This document shows positions 46,411 through 64,000 of a DNA stretch of 64,000 bases, in pieces. Every line of letters begins with the position of its first letter. Position 1 is the stretch's first letter. The stretch comes from Candidatus Thorarchaeota archaeon (lineage in GTDB: Archaea; Asgardarchaeota; Thorarchaeia; Thorarchaeales; Thorarchaeaceae). Both the position numbers and the translations under genes were made by a program. The stretch lies in the NCBI GenBank assembly GCA_019057475.1, contig DXJO01000006.1:1-64000 (forward strand). Direction: 5' to 3'. The notes under the pieces were generated by a model. It was not told the origin of the DNA, did no database searches, and saw only the letters and a list, made by a program, of their open reading frames with translations.

Positions 46411-47318
46411 AGATGGCAATGGCTTGGGGATGCCTTGTCCCCACTCGAAGATCACTCATAGGATATGAAGCGGCTACTAGAAAGGTTCTGAATCATCTTG
46501 GCGTTGAAACCGTAGATATCCCGAATGAAACCTGCTGTGCACCATTCTGGATGCAGTCTCTCGATTTTACTACCAGCCTAGCCATGGCTGCCCGAAATCT
46601 TGCAAAGGCGGAGGAAATGGGGCTTGACCTCCTAACACCTTGCAGCGGTTGCTTCCACTCCTATATGCGAGTGAATCACACGTATGAGAACCATCCGGAA
46701 ATGCGTGAAAAAGTAAACGATATTCTCGCAAAGGCAGACCTGAGATATGATGGGAATGTCGAGTCGCGTCACGTAGTTGATTTTCTCTACAAAGATATCG
46801 GTGTTAATGCAATCAAGGAGAGTATGAAGATAGATCTTGGTGAGATCGAGATCGGTCTTAGATATGGATGTCACATGCTCAAGCCAAGCGACCTGCTCAA
46901 TATCGAATACTCTGAAAGACCCCGATTCGGGGATGAGTTGCTAGAGGCTGTCGGCGTAAGGTGCAAGGAGTACACAGGGCGCTACAGGTGCTGTGGAGGG
47001 CTTCTTCGAGGAACACAGGATGATGTGGCTGACTATATACTACACGACCGACTGATGGATGCTAAAAATGCCAATCTCGACGGACTTGTGACTGTGTGTT
47101 CTCTCTGTCATATCCAGCACGACATGGGTCAGAAGAGCATCAAGCGGAAATTTGGCATAGAGGACCTCGAGATTCCGGTTTTGCACTTTCCACAATTGCT
47201 GGCTCTAGGGTTTGGATATTCTGCTGAAGAGATAGGACTGAATCTGCACACCGTGAAAACGGACGGAATCGTTGCGAAAATCATTGCGGGCGCATCGAAA
47301 GGAGGTGTCAAGAAATGA
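46407..47318 (+). CDS. Heterodisulfide reductase subunit B-like, diverged (HdrB2)
   Basis: The 303-residue protein has the two HdrB cluster motifs: WGCLVPTR, TCCAPFW and PCSGC in the first half (note CCA, not CCG), YGCHMLKP, RCCGG and VCSLCHIQHD in the second. All cysteine ligands are present. It differs from HdrB1/HdrB3 along its length, so it is a separate subfamily, similar to the HdrB of non-methanogens. It overlaps hdrC2 in ATGA and hdrA1 in ATGA, so HdrC2-HdrB2-HdrA1 should form one complex. Confidence 0.9.
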   Translation: MKMAMAWGCLVPTRRSLIGYEAATRKVLNHLGVETVDIPNETCCAPFWMQSLDFTTSLAMAARNLAKAEEMGLDLLTPCSGCFHSYMRVNHTYENHPEMREKVNDILAKADLRYDGNVESRHVVDFLYKDIGVNAIKESMKIDLGEIEIGLRYGCHMLKPSDLLNIEYSERPRFGDELLEAVGVRCKEYTGRYRCCGGLLRGTQDDVADYILHDRLMDAKNANLDGLVTVCSLCHIQHDMGQKSIKRKFGIEDLEIPVLHFPQLLALGFGYSAEEIGLNLHTVKTDGIVAKIIAGASKGGVKK

Positions 47319-50300
47319 GCACTGAGGAACCGAGAATAGGAGTATTCGTCTGCCACTGTGGTCTTAATATCGCTGGCGTAGTGGAATGCAAGAAAGTGGC
47401 CGATTTCGCTGCCACACTTCCTGATGTGGCCTATTCAGTGGACTTGCTGTTCGCCTGTTCCGACGACGGACAGGAACACATCAAGGAAGCCATCCATGAG
47501 CATAATCTGAACCGTGTCATCGTTGCCTCGTGCACTCCTCGGACACACGAACCTGTCTTCAGGCAGTGCCTTGAGGAGGCAGGGCTGAACCCCTATCTGT
47601 ACGACCAGGTCAATCTTCGGGAGCATGTCAGCTGGGTTCACATGGACGAGAAGGAGAAGGCTACGCAGAAGGCTTTGGAACTGGTGGCTATGTCCGTGGA
47701 GCGGGCCAAAAGGTTGGAACCCCTTGAACGTCAGATTGTGGATGTGATTCCGAAGTGTGCTGTCATCGGTGCTGGTGTCGCAGGCATATCTGCCGCGCTA
47801 GACTTAGCAGACGCGGGCTTTGAAACCTATCTAATCGAGAAGAGGCCGACTATCGGCGGGCAGATGGCATTGCTCGACAAGGTCTTTCCACAGAATGACT
47901 GTGCGATATGTATCCTTGGTCCCATCATGTCTCGTGTCGGGCGACATCCGAGAATCACACTCCTGCCTTACAGTGAGTTAGAGACAGTAAACGGGCACGT
48001 TGGCAATTTCCGGCTTACGGTCAGGAAGAAGACCCGCTATATCCACCCGGACATCTGTAATGGCTGTACCGACTGCGAACAGGTCTGTCCTGTTTCTACA
48101 CCCAACTCCTATGAGTTTTGGTTGACGGATCGCAAGGCGGTATACAGACCTTTCCCACAGGCAGTACCCAGTAGCTACACAATCGACAAGAAGGGGATCC
48201 CAGCTTGTAGGTTCTCCTGCCCCGCGCACGTGAATTGTCAGGGTTTTTCCACACTGATCAAGGAGAAACGCTTCAGTGAGGCTCTCGACATTGTAAGAAA
48301 CGCGATACCTTTCGCTGGAGTACTGGGTCGCGTTTGTACAAGTCCATGCGAAGCGAAGTGTGAACGGGGAGCGTTCGATGAAAGCTTGAGCATTAGAAAC
48401 CTACATCGGTTCCTAGCTGACTACGAGCGCGAACATGGCGCTACGAAAGTTGAGAAAATCAAGAAAGACAAGAAAGAAAAGATTGCTGTGGTGGGAGCGG
48501 GACCCGCTGGCATAGCTTGCGCCTATGACTTGGCTAAACTAGGCTATCCGGTGACTGTCTTCGAAGCCAGAGAGGAGAGTGGTGGTCTCCTGAGATGGGG
48601 CATCCCGGAATACCGGCTACCTCGTGATGTGCTGAGGGAGGAGATATCGAGAGTCGAAGGTCTTGGTGTCAAGATTCTTACGGGCAAACCAGTCAAGTCA
48701 ATCGCTAGTCTGAGGAATCGAGGTTTTAAGGCTGTTTTCCTCGCCACGGGCGCACCGGTTAGTACAAAGCTGGGAGTTGAAGGCGAGGATGCCAAAGGCG
48801 TGTTTCATGCCCTTGACTTCTTGAACCAGGTTAACAGCGGAGAGAGTGTTGATCTGGGGAAGAAGGTAGCAATCATTGGGGGCGGCAACGCTGCAGTTGA
48901 CTCGGCGAGAGTTGCGAAACGTCTTGGTGCAAGGACAGTGACACTCATCTATAGACGATCGCGAGTGGAGATGCCGGCCATCCCTAGTGAGATTGAGGAA
49001 GCAGAGAAAGAAGGAGTCAACCTTATGCTCTTGGCTACGCCCATTGGATTTATCATGTCTGATGGTGTCCTTGAGAGCATCAGATGCATCAAGATGCGGC
49101 TAGGTGAGCCTGACGCCTCTGGTCGCAGACGTCCGATACCGATTCCTGAATCGGAGTTTGAGGTGCGTGTTGACAATGTTATCATAGCCGTAGGCCAGAT
49201 GGTGAGCCCCACCAGCATTCTCAAGGGTCTAGAGGTCACACAATGGGATACCCTTTCAGTCGACCCAATCACGTTGCAGACGAGCTTAAAGGGTGTCTTC
49301 GCAGGAGGGGATGTTGTTTCAGGTCCAACGACGGTTGTGGAGGCTGTGGCTGCAGGAATAGAGGCAGCGAAGTCTATCGACCGCTATGTACGAGGCGTTG
49401 ATCTCTCAGAAGGAAGACCTGAGATACTCCGTCTGGTGCCATCTGCTGAGGTGGACAAGACGAGAGCTGAAATCGCTGAACGTGCAGTCATGCCAACTAT
49501 AAATGCGAAATTAAGGAAGAGTAACTTTGCTGAGGTTGAAACAGGCTTGGCCCTGAAGACTGCTGTTGCGGAAGCAGAGCGCTGTTTCAACTGTGCTCTG
49601 TGCTCTGAGTGTAACCTATGTATCGAGGTATGCAAGCCCAACGCCATCGATCATTCGTTGGTGGATGAGTTCGTCGAGCTGGATGTCGGGACTATCATCT
49701 TGGCCACTGGGTTCAAGCCCTATGACCCATCCGAAACTCGTGAGTTTGGTTATGGCGCTTTTAAGAATGTCATTACGAATGCTCAACTAGAGCGGCTAAC
49801 CAATGCCGCTGGACCTACCCACGGCAAAGTCAAGAGACCTTCTGACGGAATGCCGCCAAAGAGTGTTGCATTTGTGCAGTGCGTTGGCTCAAGAGACCGT
49901 AGAGTGAACCAAGACTACTGCTGCTACACGGGATGCGAGAATTCGCTGAAGCAGGCCACGCAGATAAAGGAGAAGTATCCTAACACTGAAATCTCCATCT
50001 TCGCAATGGACATTCGCACTCATGGCTTGGGCTATGAGGGTCTCTACCGCAGGGCTCGAGAGATGGGCGTAATCATCATCAAGGGACGTCCCTCCGAGAT
50101 TGAGGAGATTCCGGGAACAAGGTCTCTCAAAGTGCTCGCTGAGGACCTGTATACTGGCGAAAGACTCGGAACTACTTATGAACTGGTAGTGCTCGCGTCT
50201 GCGTTGCTACCCAATGACGACACGAAGGACCTAGCCCGCAAGTTGAACATTTCCACAGGGGAGTACGGCTATCTGATGGAAGCCCATCCCAAGCTGCGAC

Positions 50301-50686
50301 CAGTAGACAGCTTTCGTGACGGTGTATTTCTAGCGGGAGCTTGTCTTGGTCCAATGGACATCCCCAAGGCTGTGGCCTATGGAAAGGCTGCTGCTGCAGG
50401 TGCTCAGTCCTTGATGGCGCCAGGCAAGTTTCAGGTTGAACCCATTTATGCAGAGATTGACACGACGCTATGCAACGACTGTGATCTCTGTAACGATCTA
50501 TGTCCGTACAGTGCCATAACTGGCGAGGGTGACGAACGGAAAGTCATGTACGAAATCTGTCAGGGATGCGGGACATGTGCTGCTGCCTGTCCACAGATGG
50601 CGATTGACATGCGGCACTATAGATCAGAACAGCTAATGCCGCAGATTGCAGCTGCGGCGCGCATTCATGGAGGGATGAAGAAATGA
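47315..50686 (+). CDS. hdrA: HdrA with inserted GltD/NfnB-like module (HdrA1)
   Basis: This is a very large flavoprotein, 1123 residues; ordinary HdrA is about 650. It has the HdrA N-terminal domain (CHCG near 13), the FAD fold (GAGVAGISAALDLA near 152, then NDCAICILG), a ferredoxin (CNGCTDCEQVCPV near 247), then from about 290 to 720 a GltD/NfnB-like unit with Cys motifs, FAD (GAGPAGIACAYDLA near 391) and an NAD(P) Rossmann (IGGGNAAVDSARVA near 520). HdrA resumes with CALCSECNLCIEVC near 758 and ends with two ferredoxins near 1052 and 1082. HdrA bifurcates electrons; the insert would bring NAD(P)H. It overlaps mvhD1 by ATGA. Confidence 0.93.
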   Translation: MSTEEPRIGVFVCHCGLNIAGVVECKKVADFAATLPDVAYSVDLLFACSDDGQEHIKEAIHEHNLNRVIVASCTPRTHEPVFRQCLEEAGLNPYLYDQVNLREHVSWVHMDEKEKATQKALELVAMSVERAKRLEPLERQIVDVIPKCAVIGAGVAGISAALDLADAGFETYLIEKRPTIGGQMALLDKVFPQNDCAICILGPIMSRVGRHPRITLLPYSELETVNGHVGNFRLTVRKKTRYIHPDICNGCTDCEQVCPVSTPNSYEFWLTDRKAVYRPFPQAVPSSYTIDKKGIPACRFSCPAHVNCQGFSTLIKEKRFSEALDIVRNAIPFAGVLGRVCTSPCEAKCERGAFDESLSIRNLHRFLADYEREHGATKVEKIKKDKKEKIAVVGAGPAGIACAYDLAKLGYPVTVFEAREESGGLLRWGIPEYRLPRDVLREEISRVEGLGVKILTGKPVKSIASLRNRGFKAVFLATGAPVSTKLGVEGEDAKGVFHALDFLNQVNSGESVDLGKKVAIIGGGNAAVDSARVAKRLGARTVTLIYRRSRVEMPAIPSEIEEAEKEGVNLMLLATPIGFIMSDGVLESIRCIKMRLGEPDASGRRRPIPIPESEFEVRVDNVIIAVGQMVSPTSILKGLEVTQWDTLSVDPITLQTSLKGVFAGGDVVSGPTTVVEAVAAGIEAAKSIDRYVRGVDLSEGRPEILRLVPSAEVDKTRAEIAERAVMPTINAKLRKSNFAEVETGLALKTAVAEAERCFNCALCSECNLCIEVCKPNAIDHSLVDEFVELDVGTIILATGFKPYDPSETREFGYGAFKNVITNAQLERLTNAAGPTHGKVKRPSDGMPPKSVAFVQCVGSRDRRVNQDYCCYTGCENSLKQATQIKEKYPNTEISIFAMDIRTHGLGYEGLYRRAREMGVIIIKGRPSEIEEIPGTRSLKVLAEDLYTGERLGTTYELVVLASALLPNDDTKDLARKLNISTGEYGYLMEAHPKLRPVDSFRDGVFLAGACLGPMDIPKAVAYGKAAAAGAQSLMAPGKFQVEPIYAEIDTTLCNDCDLCNDLCPYSAITGEGDERKVMYEICQGCGTCAAACPQMAIDMRHYRSEQLMPQIAAAARIHGGMKK

Positions 50687-51111
50687 GTGGCAAGAGGTTC
50701 GAACCTAGTATCGTGGCGTTCACGTGCAACTGGTGCTCTTATGGCGGTGCAGACCTTGCGGGAATTTCACGTATCCAATACCCCCCCAATTCGAAGGTGA
50801 TTAGGCTCATGTGTTCAGGCAGAGTTGACCCGCTGATGACGCTTGAGGCGTTCAAGAATGGAGCTGACGGTGTAATCATTAGTGGCTGCCACATTGGTGA
50901 CTGTCACTACTCCACAGGCAACTACCGAACAGAGGTTCGATTCATGGCACTCCGATCAGCGATGGATGTTATTGGATTAAATCCAGAACGGTTGCGTCTT
51001 CTTTGGGCGAGTGCCTCAGAAGGACAGCAGTGGGCGGATACAATGCGAGAGATGGCTGAGCAAGTTAGAGAGCTTGGACCTAGTCCACTCAAAGGAGGTA
51101 GCAAGAAGTGA
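50683..51111 (+). CDS. mvhD: MvhD-type electron transfer subunit (MvhD1)
   Basis: The 142-residue protein is the [2Fe-2S] subunit that links a hydrogenase or dehydrogenase to HdrA. The motif IVAFTCNWCSYGGADLAG starts near residue 10, and GCHIGDCHYSTGNY lies near residue 68, the known Cys pairs. The length and sequence fit well. It overlaps hdrA1 (ATGA) and hdrA2 (GTGA), so it belongs to the same translated unit. Two paralogs occur at 54193 and 63632. The third Cys position is Thr-Cys-Asn here versus Cys-Cys-Asn in the paralogs. Confidence 0.94.
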   Translation: MSGKRFEPSIVAFTCNWCSYGGADLAGISRIQYPPNSKVIRLMCSGRVDPLMTLEAFKNGADGVIISGCHIGDCHYSTGNYRTEVRFMALRSAMDVIGLNPERLRLLWASASEGQQWADTMREMAEQVRELGPSPLKGGSKK

Positions 51112-52448: not shown

Positions 52449-54196
52449 TGGCTACAGAGGAAGTTCCAAGGATTGGCGTATTCGTATGTCATTGTGGACA
52501 TAACATTGCTGGGACTGTAGATGTTGAGCGCGTGGCGGAGATTGCCGCCCACTACCCGAATGTTGAGTTCGCTACACATTTCATGTTCATGTGCAGTGAC
52601 TCCGGACAACAGCTGATTCGCGACAAGATCGAGGAGTTTAGTCTAAATAGGGTCGTAGTTGCCAGTTGCTCTCCCCGGATGCACGAGCCAACGTTTCGAA
52701 GGGTGGTCGAAGAGGCTGATGTCAACAGATACTGCTTCGAACAGGTGAACCTGAGAGAGCACGTGTCTTGGTGCCATATGAGGGAGCCTGAGGCAGCTAC
52801 CGAGAAAGCGATAGATCTTATTCGGATGTCTGTTGCTAGGGCCGCCCTTCTCGTGCCACTCGAGGTTAAGACTGTGAGTGTAGAACCACATACTCTGGTC
52901 GTTGGCGGCGGGGTTGCTGGATTGAGGGCGGCAATCGACATTGACAGCCGCGGCTTCAAGGTCACTCTCGTGGAACGAGAGCCTGAACTCGGTGGGAATC
53001 TAGCAAAGCTCTCTACTCTCTATCAGGGCAATGAGAAAGCCAGTGATGTCATCGAACGTATGGTACTGGCGGCCCGAATTAGCGAGAACCTGACCATAAT
53101 GACTGATTCGGAAGTGGTTGACGTCGAAGGCTATATTGGCAATTTTGATGTGACTGTCAAGAACAATGCCACCGACAAGACAGAGAAGCTCCGGGTTGGA
53201 GCTATAATAGTTGCTACAGGCTTTCAGTCATGGGTGCCTGAAGGAATCCCTCCGTACGGAATGAGTCTGGATGTCATCACGTTGGCCCAGCTAGAGGAGA
53301 TGAAGCGGGATGACAAGTTATTATGTCCAAGTACCGGCAAGCCTCCCAAGAAGGTCATGTTTATCGGATGTGTTGGTTCTCGTCAACCGGGAGTGCAAGG
53401 GCATGAACACTGTTCCAGGTACTGTTGTACTGCCATGGTGAAGGCAGCTGCTGACATAACTGAGATTACTGACGAAGTTCTGATACTCTATGATGATATC
53501 CGTACATTCGGGAAGGGCCACGAGGAGGTCCACCGTTCTGCCCACGAGAAGTTTGTAATGTTCTCCAAGTTTGATCGCACCAAGCCTGCCAAGACAACAG
53601 TAGCTGACGGTGCTTTGAGTGTGAAATGGAGAGATATCTTGGCTGGCGATAATCTTGAGTTCCATCCGGACCTCTTGGTATTGGTTACAGCTATGATTCC
53701 CCCGGAAGGTGTAGAGAAAGTGTCCCAGCTGTTCAGCCTCACACGCTCGGCAGATGGCTTCTTCAATGAGGAACACATCAAGCTGGCTCCTTTAACTACT
53801 CACACCGCAGGTGTGATGATTGCAGGAGCTGCCCAATCTGCAAAGGATTCTACTGACAGCACTACGCAAGCGAGCGGAGCTGCCGCGAAAGCGGCTTCAT
53901 TGATGGCCCGGGGAGAAGTGGAGATTGAATCCACCGTTGCTCATGTGCTAGAAGAGCTGTGTTCCAGCTGTCACACATGCGCCACTGCTTGTCCATACGG
54001 TGCTATCTCCTTTGACACCTCAAAGAAACCGGAGATAGCCGTGGTGACAGAGGCAGAATGTCACGGATGTGGGACCTGCGCAGCAGGGTGTCCAAGCAGT
54101 GCCATTATTATGCGGCATTCGACTGATGAACAAATCACTGCAATGGTTGAAGCGTTTCTCATGCCTCCACCAGTGATGGGGGGTGGTGATTCATGA
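52448..54196 (+). CDS. HdrA with N-terminal domain and C-terminal ferredoxins (HdrA3)
   Basis: The 582-residue protein has the N-terminal HdrA domain (VCHCGHNIAG near 12, ASCSPRMHEPTF near 75), FAD fold (VGGGVAGLRAAIDI near 150), then CVGSRQPGVQGHEHCSRYCC near 305 and two C-terminal ferredoxins (CSSCHTCATACPYGAI near 505, CHGCGTCAAGCPSSAI near 537). It lacks the CSACIL segment and internal ferredoxin present in HdrA2. TAATG overlap with hdrA2, ATGA overlap with mvhD2. A near paralog, HdrA5, is at 61884. The two HdrAs look like complementary parts, which is inferred. Confidence 0.92.
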   Translation: MATEEVPRIGVFVCHCGHNIAGTVDVERVAEIAAHYPNVEFATHFMFMCSDSGQQLIRDKIEEFSLNRVVVASCSPRMHEPTFRRVVEEADVNRYCFEQVNLREHVSWCHMREPEAATEKAIDLIRMSVARAALLVPLEVKTVSVEPHTLVVGGGVAGLRAAIDIDSRGFKVTLVEREPELGGNLAKLSTLYQGNEKASDVIERMVLAARISENLTIMTDSEVVDVEGYIGNFDVTVKNNATDKTEKLRVGAIIVATGFQSWVPEGIPPYGMSLDVITLAQLEEMKRDDKLLCPSTGKPPKKVMFIGCVGSRQPGVQGHEHCSRYCCTAMVKAAADITEITDEVLILYDDIRTFGKGHEEVHRSAHEKFVMFSKFDRTKPAKTTVADGALSVKWRDILAGDNLEFHPDLLVLVTAMIPPEGVEKVSQLFSLTRSADGFFNEEHIKLAPLTTHTAGVMIAGAAQSAKDSTDSTTQASGAAAKAASLMARGEVEIESTVAHVLEELCSSCHTCATACPYGAISFDTSKKPEIAVVTEAECHGCGTCAAGCPSSAIIMRHSTDEQITAMVEAFLMPPPVMGGGDS

Positions 54197-54627
54197 CTGC
54201 CACTGTCACAATTTCTAAAGAGTGGATACCTAGGATTGCAGCCTTTTGCTGCAACTGGTGTTCCTACGCAGGTGCTGACCTAGCTGGCACAAGCAGAATC
54301 CAGTACCCCTCTGCTGTGCGAATAATCAGGGTAAATTGCACTGGTAGGGTCGACCCCGAATTCGTACTAAACGCCCTTGACAAGGGTGCGGATGGAGTAC
54401 TCGTGTCAGGCTGTCATCCAGGGGACTGCCATTACACAAGCGGCAATCTCAAGATGCGGGCACGATGGACGCTACTTCAGATGGCCGTTGAGCAAGCCGG
54501 AATCAACCCCGATAGGATTCGTCTACAGTGGGCCAGCGCTTCAGAGGGACAGAAGTTCGCTGATGGGGTTAGAGAACTCACGGAGAAGGTCAAGAATTTG
54601 GGTCCGTTTAGGAGGGGTTGGCAATGA
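54193..54627 (+). CDS. mvhD: MvhD-type electron transfer subunit (MvhD2)
   Basis: The 144-residue [2Fe-2S] subunit has AAFCCNWCSYAGADLAGTSR near residue 14 and GCHPGDCHYTSGN near 72. It is nearly the same as MvhD3 at the window end and less like MvhD1. It follows hdrA3 (ATGA) and leads to the HTH and hydrogenase genes, so it probably passes electrons from VhuAG to the HdrA2/HdrA3 pair. The end overlaps the next gene in ATGA (54624-54627). Confidence 0.95.
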   Translation: MTATVTISKEWIPRIAAFCCNWCSYAGADLAGTSRIQYPSAVRIIRVNCTGRVDPEFVLNALDKGADGVLVSGCHPGDCHYTSGNLKMRARWTLLQMAVEQAGINPDRIRLQWASASEGQKFADGVRELTEKVKNLGPFRRGWQ

Positions 54628-54971
54628 AAGAGAAATCTACACAGGATAGGATTGAAGCAGCCATTGACGCCTTCGGAAGCGAGCGATTAAGATGGCTTAT
54701 AGGCAAAGGAGACGTTCTAACCCAACGAAACGAGCTGACCGAAGAGAAACTCAAGGAGCTCGTCGACAAAACAGTCCGCGAAGAGATTGACCGGAGTACC
54801 ATTGCCAGGCGGCTTAGAGAGTCGCCTTCAACGATATCAGAGATATCGAAGGCAACGAAGCTGGAAACGGACTACATATTGGAAAATCTCCTCGCCATGA
54901 TGAAGTGGAACCGCGTTGAGATAGTCGATGAGAAGCAGAGAGAATATGTCTATGCTCTGAAGGAGATCTGA
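54624..54971 (+). CDS. Winged-helix-like small protein in the hydrogenase operon
   Basis: The 115-residue protein is not a redox subunit: it has no cysteine. A charged helix pair in residues 1-60 is followed by a winged-helix segment (STISEISKATKLETDYIL near residue 70, then a strand pair ending YVYALKEI). The ATG overlaps the mvhD2 stop and the gene ends 2 bp before vhuG. It could be a DNA-binding regulator of the operon or a maturation/assembly partner, since it is embedded between electron-transfer and hydrogenase genes. Function is inferred only from location. Confidence 0.7.
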   Translation: MKEKSTQDRIEAAIDAFGSERLRWLIGKGDVLTQRNELTEEKLKELVDKTVREEIDRSTIARRLRESPSTISEISKATKLETDYILENLLAMMKWNRVEIVDEKQREYVYALKEI

Positions 54972-54973
54972 AC

Positions 54974-55897
54974 GTGACTGAACCAGTTCCTATCGCAATG
55001 GCCCAAGGTAGCTCCTGTTGGGGTTGTTACCAGAGCCTCATTGACATTCACCTTAATCTGGCAACTGTCCTCCCCCTGTTGGACATCAAGTACTGGACGT
55101 GTGTGGCCGACTTCAAGCTCAAGGATTTGGAGGGCTATCCTGACAAATCGATCACGGTCGGCCTGTACGAGGGAATGGCCCGAACAGAGGAGGACATTCA
55201 TCTGCTAAAGCTCATAAGAGCGAAGTGCAAGATACTGATTGCATTTGGCTCATGTTCATGCTTTGGCGGCATTCCTGGAATGGCTAACTTCTCAACGATA
55301 GAGGAGTGCAACGAGGTCAAGTTCCGAAACAACAAGACCGTTAAGGATGGTGAGCTGCCAACAGAGAACCTCCCAGCGATTGCTCCCGTTGTGATACCCA
55401 ACCGAGACATAGTTGACTTTGAAATCTTTTTGCCGGGGTGCCCGCCAACCTCTAGCTTGATTCTCACTGCATTGACTGCTCTGCTTGAAGGCAAACCGAT
55501 TGAGCTACCACCACACACGGTGTGTCACTATTGCGATCGCGAGAAGAAAGAAACCCCGATAGAGAAGATACTGAGACCCTACGAAGGCATAGCAGACCCC
55601 GACCGGTGCCTTCTCGAACAGGGGTATATCTGCCTTGGCTCTGCAACTTGGGGTCTCTGTGAAGGACAGTGTGTCAGCCATGGCGTGACTTGCCGGGGCT
55701 GTTTTGGACCGCCTCCGCCAATCATGGGCGACCAAGGGGCGGCGGCAATATCCATGCTTGGCTCATATGCACCTCTTGAATCGGAAGTCCTTGCTGACAC
55801 GGTCCATGACCCACTTGGTTGCTTCTGGAGGTTCACCTACCCAACAAGCCACCTGGGTGCCATTCGAATAAAGCGAGAGGAGGCAAAGACGAAATGA
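54974..55897 (+). CDS. vhuG: [NiFe] hydrogenase small subunit, Mvh/Vhu type
   Basis: The 307-residue protein is the Fe-S small subunit of a group 3c [NiFe] hydrogenase. The proximal cluster ligands lie in GSSCWGCYQSLID near residue 12, GSCSCFGGIPG near 93, and PGCPPTSSL near 155; the C-terminal ferredoxin-like Cys set (CLLEQGYICLGSATWGLC, then CVSHGVTCRGCFGPPP) is near 215-255. There is no signal peptide, so it acts in the cytosol. The GTG start is eight bases after GGAG. It overlaps vhuA in ATGA. Together with VhuA and VhuU it would pass electrons via MvhD to HdrA. Confidence 0.94.
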   Translation: MTEPVPIAMAQGSSCWGCYQSLIDIHLNLATVLPLLDIKYWTCVADFKLKDLEGYPDKSITVGLYEGMARTEEDIHLLKLIRAKCKILIAFGSCSCFGGIPGMANFSTIEECNEVKFRNNKTVKDGELPTENLPAIAPVVIPNRDIVDFEIFLPGCPPTSSLILTALTALLEGKPIELPPHTVCHYCDREKKETPIEKILRPYEGIADPDRCLLEQGYICLGSATWGLCEGQCVSHGVTCRGCFGPPPPIMGDQGAAAISMLGSYAPLESEVLADTVHDPLGCFWRFTYPTSHLGAIRIKREEAKTK

Positions 55898-57210
55898 CCA
55901 ACGAGAAGATAATCCGCATTGACCCAGTGACACGCCTTGAAGGTCATGGATCGTTGACTATCAAGCTGGGTCCTGGCAACAAGGTCAAGGATGTCCAGTT
56001 CAACGTTAACAGTACACGATTCTTTGAGAAGTTTCTCGAAGGGCGACCAATGGAAGAGGCTCCACGAATCGCTCCGCGGATCTGCGGAATCTGCCCTATC
56101 CCGCATCATCTTGCATCACTGAAAGCCGTGGAGGCCGCCTGGGATGTGACACCTCCACCTGCAGCAATCAAGCTTAGGCGGCTATTGATTGAGGCGAAGC
56201 AGCTCTCATCTCACGCAATTCACTTCTACGCTCTTGCGGCTCCTGATTTTGTCTTTGGACCCTTCGCGAGCCCGGCTGTACGGAACGTTGCTGCTGTTCT
56301 CAAGTATCTCCCTGATGTTGCAGTCCAAGCGATCAAGCTCATGGAGTTCGGTCAGGAACTGTGCGCGACTATTGGGGCCAAGGCAATCCACCCAACAACG
56401 GGCATTCCTGGTGGGATGCTGTACGCTATGAAAGAAGAAGAGCGCGATGATTGGCTCAAGAAGGTCCCTGAGATGCTGGAGAACATCCATAAGACAGTGG
56501 ACCTTGCCAAGACCGTTGTCAACTCATACATCGAGGTGATAACGAAGCTCGCAGTCACTCCAACGTACTACGTTGGTCTGACCAATGATGGAGCTTTTGA
56601 CATCTATGATGGCAAGATTCGCGTGATGGATCCAGATGGCAAGATTGTGAAAGAATTCATGCCTCACGAGTACACAAAGTACTACGGCGAGCACGTTCCT
56701 AAGCACTCCTATGCGACTCACATCTACTACAAACCAGCCGGCTACCCCGAGGGTATTTGGCGAGCGAATACTCTTGCACGATGCAACGTTAACGATAGGA
56801 TGGCCACACCTCTTGCAGACGCGGCCCTGAAGGAGATGAGAGAACTCGTTGGGAGACCCTCGCATCACACGTTTGTATACCACTACGCTCGAATCGTAGA
56901 GATGGTTCAAGCTGCTGAGATGATCAAGACGCTCCTTGAGGATCCCGAGATTGTAAGCACGGACGTGAAGCTTTCTGACGTTGAACCCAAGGCTGGCGAC
57001 GGCGTTGGTGTTGTCGAGGCTCCGCGAGGCATTCTGCTCCACAACTACGAGTCTGATGACAAGGGCATGCTGGTCAAGGCGAATCTCATTGTCGCCACGA
57101 ACAACAATATTGCCGGCATCGAGAAATCATTGATGGTGGCCGCGAAACAAATCTTCGAAGACAAAGTGCTCGAGAAGATTACACTTCCTGAACCCATGGT
57201 GAAAACTTAG
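55894..57210 (+). CDS. vhuA: [NiFe] hydrogenase large subunit lacking the C-terminal Ni motif (VhuA)
   Basis: The 438-residue protein has the N-terminal Ni motif (RICGICPIPHH near residue 60) and the typical group 3c body (ARCNVNDRMATPLAD, then HHTFVYHYARIVEMVQAAE), but it ends with NNNIAGIEKSLMVAAKQIF and a short tail at TAG 57208, without DPCxxCxxH. That motif is on the tiny gene just downstream (57223-57381). Split vhuA/vhuU arrangements are known in Methanococcus. I use ATG 55894, behind GGAGG and overlapping the vhuG stop; the ORF to 55819 is longer but not needed. Confidence 0.94.
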   Translation: MTNEKIIRIDPVTRLEGHGSLTIKLGPGNKVKDVQFNVNSTRFFEKFLEGRPMEEAPRIAPRICGICPIPHHLASLKAVEAAWDVTPPPAAIKLRRLLIEAKQLSSHAIHFYALAAPDFVFGPFASPAVRNVAAVLKYLPDVAVQAIKLMEFGQELCATIGAKAIHPTTGIPGGMLYAMKEEERDDWLKKVPEMLENIHKTVDLAKTVVNSYIEVITKLAVTPTYYVGLTNDGAFDIYDGKIRVMDPDGKIVKEFMPHEYTKYYGEHVPKHSYATHIYYKPAGYPEGIWRANTLARCNVNDRMATPLADAALKEMRELVGRPSHHTFVYHYARIVEMVQAAEMIKTLLEDPEIVSTDVKLSDVEPKAGDGVGVVEAPRGILLHNYESDDKGMLVKANLIVATNNNIAGIEKSLMVAAKQIFEDKVLEKITLPEPMVKT

Positions 57211-57222
57211 ACAAAAGAATTG

Positions 57223-57381
57223 ATGATCATGACAGAAGAAATACCTGAAGGCGTACTGAACATCATCGAGATGGTTGTTCGGTGCTACGACTGCTGACTA
57301 TCCTGCGGCGCTCATCTCGTCATTATCGACGAAGAGGGCCGCGAACTAGTCAGGAAGGAGCTTCAGACCGGCGGCGGATGA
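57223..57381 (+). CDS. vhuU: VhuU: split hydrogenase C-terminus with selenocysteine at in-frame TGA (57295-57297)
   Basis: The frame from ATG 57223 (or 57229) reads EEIPEGVLNIIEMVVRCYDC, then TGA, then LSCGAH, and goes on for 23 more sense codons to TGA at 57379. The conserved hydrogenase motif DPCxxCxxH appears as D-C-[TGA]-L-S-C-G-A-H, so the TGA falls on the Cys that ligates Ni. Selenocysteine at this position in a small separate VhuU is known from Methanococcus. Of 53 codons, Sec is the 25th. Ending at TGA 57295 would delete the Ni ligands, which the missing C-terminus of VhuA makes untenable. I see no clear ribosome site. Confidence 0.85.
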
Positions 57382-57727
57382 AGACCCAGAAAAAAGATTG
57401 AAAACTGAGTCTGACCTGCTCCAGCAGGGGCGGAGTCGGTCTGGCTCCTTCAAACACCAGTCTTGTATGCTCGAACTCCTACACTCCAAAGAAGACAATG
57501 AATGATTTCGGACATTGAATTGTTATTTCGAATCCAGATTCAAAATTCAGAAACATCTTCCTGATTGTCTGTAATCATGCATGAAATCATTGATTGCGTT
57601 TCGTTTCAAATGATGAATCTCGTTTCCGTGACCGAAACCTAACTCAATAGTATTATAATCTCGTTGAGAGGACTCCTCGCTGGCCTCTGGCATGATTGCT
57701 CGCAGAACGGAACGGTGAATTGAGCCA
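57382..57727. other. Gap between vhuU and hdrA4 with SECIS candidate and promoter
   Basis: It holds the hairpin at 57398-57453, then AT-rich sequence without a gene. TATTATAATC at 57651-57660 is a plausible TATA element for hdrA4, 68 bp before its ATG. GTTTC and GAAAC at 57622-57638 form a short inverted repeat just upstream, a possible operator. Confidence 0.5.
57398..57453 (+). promoter_or_regulatory. Stable hairpin downstream of vhuU, SECIS candidate
   Basis: Arms TTGAA/TTCAA, GAGTC/GGCTC (one G-T pair), GACC/GGTC and CTCC/GGAG pair in nested order around a 9-nt loop (57423-57431), with small internal loops. It lies 17 bp after the vhuU stop. Archaeal SECIS elements lie in the 3' untranslated region. 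I cannot match the exact GAA/A bulge or the eukaryote-like kink, so the assignment is inferred from location. Confidence 0.5.
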
Positions 57728-60472
57728 ATGACGATTGACCACACATCGAAGAAAAGTACATCCAAACTGGACGTTGTATCTAGCGAAGCCCTGGTTATTG
57801 GGGGTGGCGTAGCTGGCATGCAGGCGGCTCTGGATATGGCTAACCAGGGTTTCAAGGTTCATCTGCTAGAGAAGACTCCTTCTCTCGGCGGAAAAATGGC
57901 GATGATAGACAAGACCTTCCCAACATTGGATTGCTCGGCATGTATTCTCACGCCGCGTCTCAGCGAGGTATCGCGTCATCCAAACATCGAACTACATACG
58001 TATTCTGACGTAATTAGCGTTGCTGGAAGAGTTGGCGATTTCAAAGTAAAGATACGCAAGCGGGCGCGATATGTGGATGAGGACAAGTGCTCGGCATGTG
58101 CGGACTGTGTCCCGGCTTGTCCAGTGGAGGTTCCTAATGAATTCGATCAGAGTCTTGGTTTCCGTAAGGCAATCTATCAACCGTTCCCACAGGCGACACC
58201 GAGCACCTACACCATTACCAAGCTTGGCACACCAGCATGCAGAGAAGCGTGTCCCGCAGACGTGAATCCTCAAGGCTTCATCTCCCTCATGAAGGAAGGG
58301 AGGTTTCATGATGCTCTTAGAATATTCAGGAAGTCCAATCCGTTCCCAGGTGTACTTGGCCGAGTGTGCATAGCCTTCTGCGAGGGCGAGTGTGTTCGAG
58401 GAGAGCTAGATGAGAGTGTAAGCATCAGGAATCTCCACAGGTTCTTGGCTGACTACGAGAGAAAACATGGACCTGATAGGCCAATTGAAGCGAAGATTGA
58501 CAAGGATGAAAGAATCGCCGTGGTCGGCGCAGGTCCCGCGGGTCTGGCATGTGGGTATCATCTTGTCAAGATGGGCTACCCCGTAACCGTATTCGAGGCT
58601 CAACCTGAAGCAGGAGGACTCCTCCGCTATGGCATTCCGGAATACAGACTTCCTCGTGACATACTGGCCGAAGAGATCGACTGGATTGCCAAGCATGGCG
58701 TAAAAATAAAGACAAGCTCTCCAGTCGAGTCAATCAAGAGCCTGAAAAAGGAGGGCTTCAAGGCGATATTCTTGGCTACAGGAGCCTCAAATAGTAACAA
58801 ACTTGGGATTGCAGGAGAGGAGGCAAAGGGCATCTACCATGCCAGTGATTTCTTGGAACGAGCCAACTCAGGGAAACCATATCCGTTGGGCGAAAAGGTT
58901 GCTGTGATTGGCGGTGGGGACGCGGCAATTGACTCCGCGAGAGTTGCCATTAGACTCGGTGCGAAGGAAGTCACGATAGTTTATCGCAGGTCACATGTCG
59001 AGTTGCCTGCCATCCCCAGCGAAGTCGAAGATGCACGAGAGGAAGGCCTTAATCTGCTACTACTGACTAATCCTATCGAAATCCTCACATCAAAGGATGA
59101 GCTGAGGGGCATCAGATGTATAAAGATGAAACTGGGTGAACCAGATCACTCGGGTCGTCGACGGCCCCAAGTCATTCGGGGTTCGGAATTCACGCTGATT
59201 GTAGACAACATGATTATTGCTGTGGGACAGAGCGTGACACCAAAGGGCCTACACGAGGAATGTGATTGTTCGGAATGGGGAACAATCAAAGTGAATCCCC
59301 TAACTCTGGAAACTAACATGGAAGGAGTCTTTGCTGGCGGTGACGTTGTTCTCGGTCCAGCCACCGCAGTTAAAGCCGTGGCCCATGGCAAGGAGGCTGC
59401 AATCTCAATAGATCGATTTCTGAGAAAGGTCAATGTTGAAGCGGATAGAATTGAAGAACGACACCGAGTGAGAGTTGAAGAGGTTGACATGGAAAAACCT
59501 ACTGAGCCTCGCGTAGACATGCCCAAACACGGTGTAGCGGGAAGAATTCAATCTTACACTGAGGTTGAACTTGGGTTTGAACAAGAATCTGCTACACAGG
59601 AGGCTGAACGATGCCTAGGCTGTGCAATCTGTTGCGAATGTGAGCTGTGTGTTGAAGCTTGCACGCGTGAAGCAATCGATCACAAGATGCAGGATGAGAT
59701 AATAGAGCTTCCAGTAGGTGCGATAGTATTGGCCGCAGGATACAGGCTTTACGATGTTAGTGATTACCCCAGGCTCGGATACGGAAAGTTCCCTAATGTC
59801 ATCCACGCGATGGAGTACGAGCGACTGATCAACGCATCAGGCCCAACCCACGGACATCTGATAAAGCTCAGTGACGGGAAGCTACCCAAGAGCATCGGTT
59901 TCATCCAATGTGTCGGTGCCCGAGATGTCAACCGCGGCGTTCCTGAGTGTTCACGAGTGTGTTGCATGTATGGTATCAAAAACGCAGTCATGGCAAAGGA
60001 ACATGACCCTGAGATTGACGTGACCATCTACTACGCTGACATCCGTGCCTTTGGCAAGGGCTTCGAGGAATTCTACAACATGGCTAAGGATCGATTTGGT
60101 ATCAAGTTCATTCGAGGCAGAGTTGGAGAGGTCATGGAGGACCGCGAAACAGGCAATCTCACTGTGAGAGTTGAGAACACCGATGAACATGCCATTCAGG
60201 ACATTGAACATGATCTTGTAGTAATCAGCCCCGGTATTCAACCCCCCTGGGGTCTTGATGTCATCGCCAGTGAGCTCGGACTAGAACTAGATGAGACAGG
60301 CTATGTGCCAGTGAAGGACGAGCTACTTGCGCCTGTGGACACTACTATTCCTGGTGTCTTTGCGTGTGGATGCGTCGATAGTCCCAAGGACATTCCAGAC
60401 TCGGTGACTGCGGGTAGCGCTGCCGCCATGAGGGCGACAATAATACTATCGCAGGCTGAGAAAAAGGAGTAA
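57728..60472 (+). CDS. HdrA lacking N-terminal domain, with inserted GltD/NfnB-like module (HdrA4)
   Basis: The 914-residue protein begins with the HdrA FAD fold (VIGGGVAGMQAALDM near 22), then FPTLDCSACILTP and a ferredoxin (CSACADCVPACPVE near 120). A GltD/NfnB-like module is inserted after FPQATPSTYTI (near 160): CREACPADVN, CIAFCEGECVRGE, FAD (GAGPAGLACGYHLV near 264), NAD(P) Rossmann (IGGGDAAIDSARVA near 392). HdrA resumes at CLGCAICCECELCVEACTREAID (near 628). It matches HdrA2 on both sides of the insert. It has no N-terminal HdrA domain or terminal ferredoxins, and HdrA5 supplies them. Confidence 0.93.
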   Translation: MTIDHTSKKSTSKLDVVSSEALVIGGGVAGMQAALDMANQGFKVHLLEKTPSLGGKMAMIDKTFPTLDCSACILTPRLSEVSRHPNIELHTYSDVISVAGRVGDFKVKIRKRARYVDEDKCSACADCVPACPVEVPNEFDQSLGFRKAIYQPFPQATPSTYTITKLGTPACREACPADVNPQGFISLMKEGRFHDALRIFRKSNPFPGVLGRVCIAFCEGECVRGELDESVSIRNLHRFLADYERKHGPDRPIEAKIDKDERIAVVGAGPAGLACGYHLVKMGYPVTVFEAQPEAGGLLRYGIPEYRLPRDILAEEIDWIAKHGVKIKTSSPVESIKSLKKEGFKAIFLATGASNSNKLGIAGEEAKGIYHASDFLERANSGKPYPLGEKVAVIGGGDAAIDSARVAIRLGAKEVTIVYRRSHVELPAIPSEVEDAREEGLNLLLLTNPIEILTSKDELRGIRCIKMKLGEPDHSGRRRPQVIRGSEFTLIVDNMIIAVGQSVTPKGLHEECDCSEWGTIKVNPLTLETNMEGVFAGGDVVLGPATAVKAVAHGKEAAISIDRFLRKVNVEADRIEERHRVRVEEVDMEKPTEPRVDMPKHGVAGRIQSYTEVELGFEQESATQEAERCLGCAICCECELCVEACTREAIDHKMQDEIIELPVGAIVLAAGYRLYDVSDYPRLGYGKFPNVIHAMEYERLINASGPTHGHLIKLSDGKLPKSIGFIQCVGARDVNRGVPECSRVCCMYGIKNAVMAKEHDPEIDVTIYYADIRAFGKGFEEFYNMAKDRFGIKFIRGRVGEVMEDRETGNLTVRVENTDEHAIQDIEHDLVVISPGIQPPWGLDVIASELGLELDETGYVPVKDELLAPVDTTIPGVFACGCVDSPKDIPDSVTAGSAAAMRATIILSQAEKKE

Positions 60473-63631: not shown

Positions 63632-64000
63632 ATGACGACGAAAACAGCAGCCAAGATTGACAACACTGAGAGTTGGGAACCGAGAATCGTAGCGTTCTGC
63701 TGCAACTGGTGTTCCTATGCTGGAGCTGACCTAGCTGGCACTAGCAGAATCCAGTATCCCCCGAATGCCAGGATTCTACGAGTCAATTGTACCGGCCGGA
63801 TAAGTCTTGAGTTTATCTTGGCCGCTCTTGAGATGGGTGCAGACGGAGTTCTTGTGTCTGGATGCCACCCAGGTGACTGCCATTATACGAGCGGCAACCT
63901 TAAGCTCAGGGCGCGCTGGACTATCATGAAGAAGGCAATTGAGCAGGCCGGTGTTGACCCTCGCAGAGTCCGGCTCCAGTGGGCGAGTGCCTCTGAGGCA
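63632..64000 (+). CDS. mvhD: MvhD-type electron transfer subunit (MvhD3, cut by window edge)
   Basis: The first 123 codons are present. IVAFCCNWCSYAGADLAGTS lies near residue 19 and GCHPGDCHYTSGN near 78, so both Cys motifs are in. The sequence is nearly that of MvhD2. It starts at ATG 63632 just after hdrA5, behind AGGAGGT. Missing only about 20 residues. A hydrogenase or other dehydrogenase may follow outside the window; the neighbour beyond 64000 would tell whether this set has its own electron donor. Confidence 0.94.
   Translation, partial: MTTKTAAKIDNTESWEPRIVAFCCNWCSYAGADLAGTSRIQYPPNARILRVNCTGRISLEFILAALEMGADGVLVSGCHPGDCHYTSGNLKLRARWTIMKKAIEQAGVDPRRVRLQWASASEA

Follow-up and report, generated by a model that had tools for sequence, protein, structure and literature searches.

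A predicted selenocysteine-containing VhuU-type hydrogenase subunit with a stop-overlapping SECIS element in a Thorarchaeial genome

In the window, the whole 64,000-nucleotide stretch of DNA analysed here, a gene for a hydrogenase large subunit (vhuA) lacks a C-terminal Ni motif: its product finishes ...KITLPEPMVKT, with no CxxC. A very small reading frame, interrupted by TGA, lies 12 bp 3′ of it. The initial annotation described this arrangement, read the TGA as selenocysteine (Sec) in a split-off subunit, VhuU, and suspected an Asgard-like carrier; the genome indeed belongs to the Thorarchaeia. The locus thus raises the question of whether the interrupted frame encodes the missing piece of the Ni site. 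The answer favoured here, with high confidence, is a Sec-decoded VhuU-type subunit whose SECIS element overlaps its own stop codon and which would complete the Ni-Fe site of the split VhuA. The genes and protein-level features concerned are the following.

54193..54627, + strand: vhuD/FlpD-type gene for an Fe-S subunit, with Cys throughout
54974..55897, + strand: vhuG, small Fe-S subunit, whose stop overlaps the vhuA start (ATGA); NCBIfam match below the cut-off
55894..57210, + strand: vhuA, large subunit without the C-terminal Ni motif; NCBIfam VhuA 504 bits, below the cut-off of 800
57229..57381, + strand: vhuU-type gene, 50 residues including the predicted Sec, then a TGA stop
57292..57294, + strand: Cys codon where Pro is usual (D-C-U-L-S-C)
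57295..57297, + strand: TGA predicted to be recoded as Sec, in the place of the first Cys of the Ni/Fe-binding distal CxxC
57316..57378, + strand: C-terminal tail past the motif His; its removal at maturation is presumed

The frame from 57223 to 57381 reads MIMTEEIPEGVLNIIEMVVRCYDC-TGA-LSCGAHLVIIDEEGRELVRKELQTGGG-TGA, the second TGA occupying 57379-57381. The first, at 57295-57297, sits as noted earlier on the first Ni-ligand position, the first Cys of a distal CxxCxxH motif, in a separate small ORF directly 3′ of a VhuA devoid of a C-terminal CxxC. Two details are revised. The motif His is followed by 21 sense codons and not 23, and the start given at 57223 is replaced by the second ATG at 57229, most likely the true one on comparative grounds, because the upstream ATG is missing from several relatives and the conserved protein begins M(T/S)(E/D)EIPEG. 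The protein matches NCBIfam VhuU (NF041786) with 53.4 bits (E 1.6e-14) against a curated equivalog cut-off of 70; being homologous to that family but outside the equivalog, it is named VhuU-type.

The simplest objection is that the TGA merely ends translation, or results from an assembly error, so that vhuU would be a degraded remnant or a Cys gene read wrongly, and the sequence does come from a single MAG window. However, the genome carries a second vhuU copy on contig 29 (66560-66715, about 2.6 kb past the window end), 90% identical in protein, which follows a separate vhuG-vhuA pair (contig 29, 64.0-69.5 kb) and retains the in-frame TGA. A search of 228 Asgard genomes for ORFs with one internal TGA also recovered homologues across the phylum. 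Identity is 90-98% within the genus and, among the matches listed, about 70-98% in most family members; in other families it falls to roughly 40-60%, and Lokiarchaeial homologues share about 50-60%. In all, 124 distinct genes with TGA at this site were collected, and judged by sequence the persistence of the interrupted ORF appears far beyond chance. Behind the TGA the mean pN/pS is 0.36 (46 sequences; 0.17 in front of it), which argues that this segment is translated and selected as protein. Neither of the two vhuA copies otherwise holds a Ni motif. The other nickel-hydrogenase-like large subunits found in the genome are of HydA type and of NuoD/FpoD-like type. Thus the genome offers no intact Cys-containing VhuA in place of the split one, whose presence would have weakened the Sec reading. 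Together with the dedicated covarying SECIS described below, these observations in the main refute the stop or error explanation, which is hardly credible.

The Sec reading also demands a genome equipped for it, and the machinery whose presence had been proposed as a check was found: tRNA-Sec, SelB, SepSecS, a PSTK-like gene and SelD, the set of a Sec-encoding organism of the archaeal/eukaryotic type, with the PSTK homologue below its cut-off. The tRNA-Sec (52.1 bits) and SelB (280 bits) score above their cut-offs, the best PDB match of the latter being archaeal SelB 4ac9 (E 1.9e-94), and SepSecS scores 395 bits. The PSTK homologue reaches only 134.5 bits against a curated cut-off of 290.5, yet it lies with tRNA-Sec, SelB and SepSecS in one 5-kb cluster (contig 42, 58.3-63.4 kb). 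SelD (contig 45) is itself a selenoprotein, with the motif TTHG-U-SCK. An alternative fate for the TGA is readthrough by suppression to Trp or Cys. A C follows the UGA here and in most relatives, and a UGA-C context can favour readthrough. On the other hand, TGA serves as a stop in other genes of the genome, the end of vhuU included, paralogues hold Cys codons in place of the TGA, and the locus carries a Sec-specific RNA element besides the Sec machinery. Suppression is therefore very improbable, and decoding as Sec remains the preferred reading.

That RNA element straddles the end of vhuU and has the following parts.

57355..57450, + strand: whole SECIS element, from fold, consensus and covariation
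57355-57361 and 57364-57372 with 57435-57450, + strand: lower helix
57378..57381, + strand: 5′ side of the core, AUGA, containing the vhuU stop TGA (57379-57381)
57382..57412, + strand: upper stem (AGACCCAG / CTGAGTCT, one C-A mismatch) and 15-nt apical loop AAAAAAGATTGAAAA
57413..57414, + strand: 3′ side of the core, GA, invariant in 39 relatives
57416..57433, + strand: accessory 3′ hairpin (CTGCTCC / GGGGCGG), lying between the core and the lower stem

Within the RNA, the last 24 nt of the tail (57355-57378) supply the 5′ strand of both the lower stem and its internal loop: the vhuU codons AAGGAGC and CAGACCGGC pair with GTCGGTCTGGCTCCTT of the 3′ flank. Since the last codons and the stop of vhuU are themselves parts of the insertion signal, the protein tail and the RNA structure constrain each other. 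The conserved RKELxTGGG of the tail may accordingly reflect RNA as much as protein, the same nucleotides forming the 5′ arm. Synonymous sites vary only a little less in the tail (0.28) than elsewhere (0.36), a difference too small to be used as evidence.

Folding of 57355-57450 gives -40.9 kcal/mol (z -3.28), a value that 0 of 200 shuffles matched, and the element of the second copy adopts a similar fold (z -4.28). The upper-stem score of the window copy was attained by 4 of 5000 shuffles; a scan of the window's 771 ATGA sites, which covered the element too, gave one site that attained it. When 39 Thorarchaeial sequences were given to RNAalifold unguided, the same layout was recovered. In that alignment 93.1% of cells are paired and 84 cells show two-sided changes, whereas shuffles average 25.6. 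Pairing drops to 36-49% when the partners are displaced by 1-3 columns; as the structure was taken from the same alignment these controls lean toward it, although the margin is still large. Two-sided changes fall in 15 of the 26 SECIS pairs among the 39 relatives, so that the pairing is conserved by compensation. A first scanner found the element in just 46 of 123 sequences; it was too strict, because it demanded a base pair beside the core, and the alignment-based test was used instead. Folding the 3′ flank alone yields a terminator-like hairpin; with the 5′ coding arm included, the SECIS fold replaces it. An Rfam search, at the gathering cut-off and with E up to 10, did not find the SECIS.

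Comparison of the aligned sequences indicates that the accessory hairpin gives a three-way junction conserved in Thorarchaeia. Among 50 other Asgard sequences, mostly of Loki type, RNAalifold recovered the upper stem and only two lower-stem pairs from a gappy alignment, and the three-way architecture therefore has statistical support in Thorarchaeia alone. Lokiarchaeal copies likewise have elements that begin at the stop TGA, with an upper stem maintained by AU-rich pairs. A C-rich/G-rich hairpin is visible by eye in these copies at the place of the accessory hairpin.

A subtler alternative accepts that the family inserts Sec but sees in the window copy a duplicate in decay, with a weakened SECIS, and in the second copy (contig 29, 66.56-66.72 kb) the functional one. 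The window upper stem is indeed the weaker, with 8 bp and one mismatch, and its apical loop starts AAAAAA where G(U/G)AAA is reported as usual in Thorarchaeia; the second copy has a longer stem and a GAAAA loop. The same-genus relatives that were fetched (L004, L006, L007) resemble the second copy in SECIS and tail. Between the two copies, 3 synonymous and 4 nonsynonymous changes have accumulated 3′ of the TGA. Against decay, the window element, with its 8-bp stem, single mismatch and 15-nt loop, lies within the published limits for the Asgard eSECIS-like type I (AUGA_GA, upper stem of 7-15 bp, ≤2 mismatches, loop of 8-20 nt) and folds at the z-score given above. Its lower helix is preserved through compensated changes, CAGACCGGC with GTCGGTCTG in the window against GTGACTGGC with GCTAGTCGC in the second copy. 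The vhuGAU-hdr cluster around the window copy is intact, with Hdr proteins encoded on both sides. Decay of the window copy is accordingly judged unlikely.

With TGA homologues across the Asgard archaea, the Sec machinery and a SECIS, the Sec-containing split VhuU of the initial annotation is borne out, and the locus offers one well-resolved Thorarchaeial hydrogenase case that brings together the gene, the Sec machinery and the insertion signal. It adds another member to a known group. Two papers already report Asgard Sec-VhuU, Thorarchaeia and Atabeyarchaeia included (PMC11227280, PMC11291895). Huang et al. 2024 (PMC11227280) describe VhuU/FrhA-type selenoproteins with eSECIS-like elements, and PMC11291895 describes an Atabeyarchaeial VhuU of about 50 aa. 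The former gives the Asgard SECIS as AUGA_GA with an upper stem of 7-15 bp, a loop of 8-20 nt and a UGA stop overlapping the AUGA, so the overlap seen here is not new, and proposes such elements as forerunners of the eukaryotic SECIS. The window gene shares with the published Asgard VhuU the small UxxC piece, the archaeal Sec machinery, the 3′ AUGA_GA SECIS, the stop overlapping AUGA and family-specific lower-stem pairs by the core, and differs in nothing essential.

More distant relatives share parts of this design. Methanococcus VhuU (NF041786; PMC2933860) is likewise a separate tiny Sec subunit of the Vhu hydrogenase, but the methanococcal SECIS is of another type, with a GAA_A bulge (PMC11227280). 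PDB entries 9sfi and 9t1s pair a VhuA-like 418-aa chain without CxxC with a separate 27-residue chain containing an X residue, and the split architecture therefore exists as a solved complex. Chain g of 9sfi (418 aa) is the best PDB match of the window VhuA (E 9.7e-133). The small chain reads ...RAYDPX-YSCAAHM, its match ending one residue past the His, and unlike the window protein it has Pro before the X residue. A literature search found no paper naming 9SFI. Full-length bacterial [NiFeSe]-type subunits (Ammonifex, L103; Bacillota, L120) have TGA at the same Ni ligand, but they are unsplit, of about 490 aa, and read DPU rather than DCU.

The favoured reading makes the product of 57229-57381 the detached C-terminal end of the large subunit of a group 3c [NiFeSe] hydrogenase, with the VhuA encoded upstream as its partner. 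At 57295, tRNA-Sec and SelB would insert Sec at the UGA under the direction of the eukaryote-like Asgard SECIS (57355-57450), in which the vhuU stop codon forms part of the AUGA_GA core and the last vhuU codons pair with the 3′ UTR in the lower stem; the second UGA would then end translation. Up to this point the reading is well supported; the later steps follow by analogy with the known family. A HycI-family maturation protease (HycI/PF01750) is encoded in the genome, and an enzyme of this type may cut off the tail, whereupon Sec and the following Cys of the CxxC-type motif would complete the Ni-Fe site of VhuA. The 27-residue small chain of 9sfi/9t1s bears on this step as well, and tail processing was reported for M. 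voltae VhuU (Sorgenfrei 1993, cited by title in PMC2933860). Electrons would probably pass through VhuG and VhuD to the Hdr proteins encoded next door.

The residue before the predicted Sec is a further point. The Cys in place of Pro that had been remarked on is present (DCU), and the canonical [NiFe]/[NiFeSe] C-terminal motif DP(C/U)xxC is thus absent; the suggestion that it was new and special to this genome does not hold, DCU being the Asgard norm. It occurs in 116 of the 124 genes, the others reading DPU (4), DIU (2), DFU (1) and DNU (1), in a non-random set gathered by similarity to the window protein and by a pattern with the preceding residue free and its neighbours fixed. Two of the DPU genes are from Loki and two are full-length bacterial; one DIU gene is from Methanopyri. 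A divergent Asgard VhuU (L064/L185) reads DFU, and the residue before Sec is therefore free to vary. Full-length Cys large subunits have DPC in 17 of 17 cases. Split Cys copies are rare; three (L052, L056, L058) carry TGC or TGT at the TGA site and read DCCLSCSAF, the motif His being replaced by Phe. A scan of 400 nt in the two copies that allowed it (L052 and L056; L058 is cut off) turned up no comparable SECIS candidate. The genome of L052 (G185) also holds Sec forms, and the split Cys copies may for this reason be selenium-independent paralogues. Since they retain DCC, the pair seems tied to splitting and not to Sec: from the aligned genes, the change from Pro to Cys appears to accompany splitting in Asgard archaea, with Sec gained or lost on top.

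It is possible, though doubtful, that a Cys-Sec pair next to Ni, often within R-C-Y-D-C-U-x-x-C, is a selected trait common to the Asgard split hydrogenases, is linked to splitting rather than to Sec, and could form a reversible selenenylsulfide and so protect or gate the Ni site against oxidants. The vicinal Cys-Sec pair of thioredoxin reductase forms such a reversible bond. A protective pair is a guess, the one most worth testing, and if functional it would be an unusual arrangement for a Ni site. No paper discussing it was found in the part of the literature covered; the available portions of PMC11227280 and PMC11291895 mention neither the Cys before Sec, nor its sharing with split Cys paralogues, nor the covarying 3′ accessory hairpin.

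Several neighbouring genes merit a brief description. The ORFs 50683-51111 and 54193-54627 (VhuD/FlpD-type) and the neighbouring HdrA ORF 63632-64000 carry Cys and no in-frame TGA; their families are often selenoproteins in Asgard archaea. Two HdrA-like ORFs (47315-50686 and 57728-60472) have a GltD/NADPH-glutamate-synthase-like domain inserted, recognized by sequence in the first and by profile in the second. A small ORF before vhuG (54618-54971) gives weak winged-helix matches and is a possible regulator; another small ORF stands at the matching place before the second vhuG copy.
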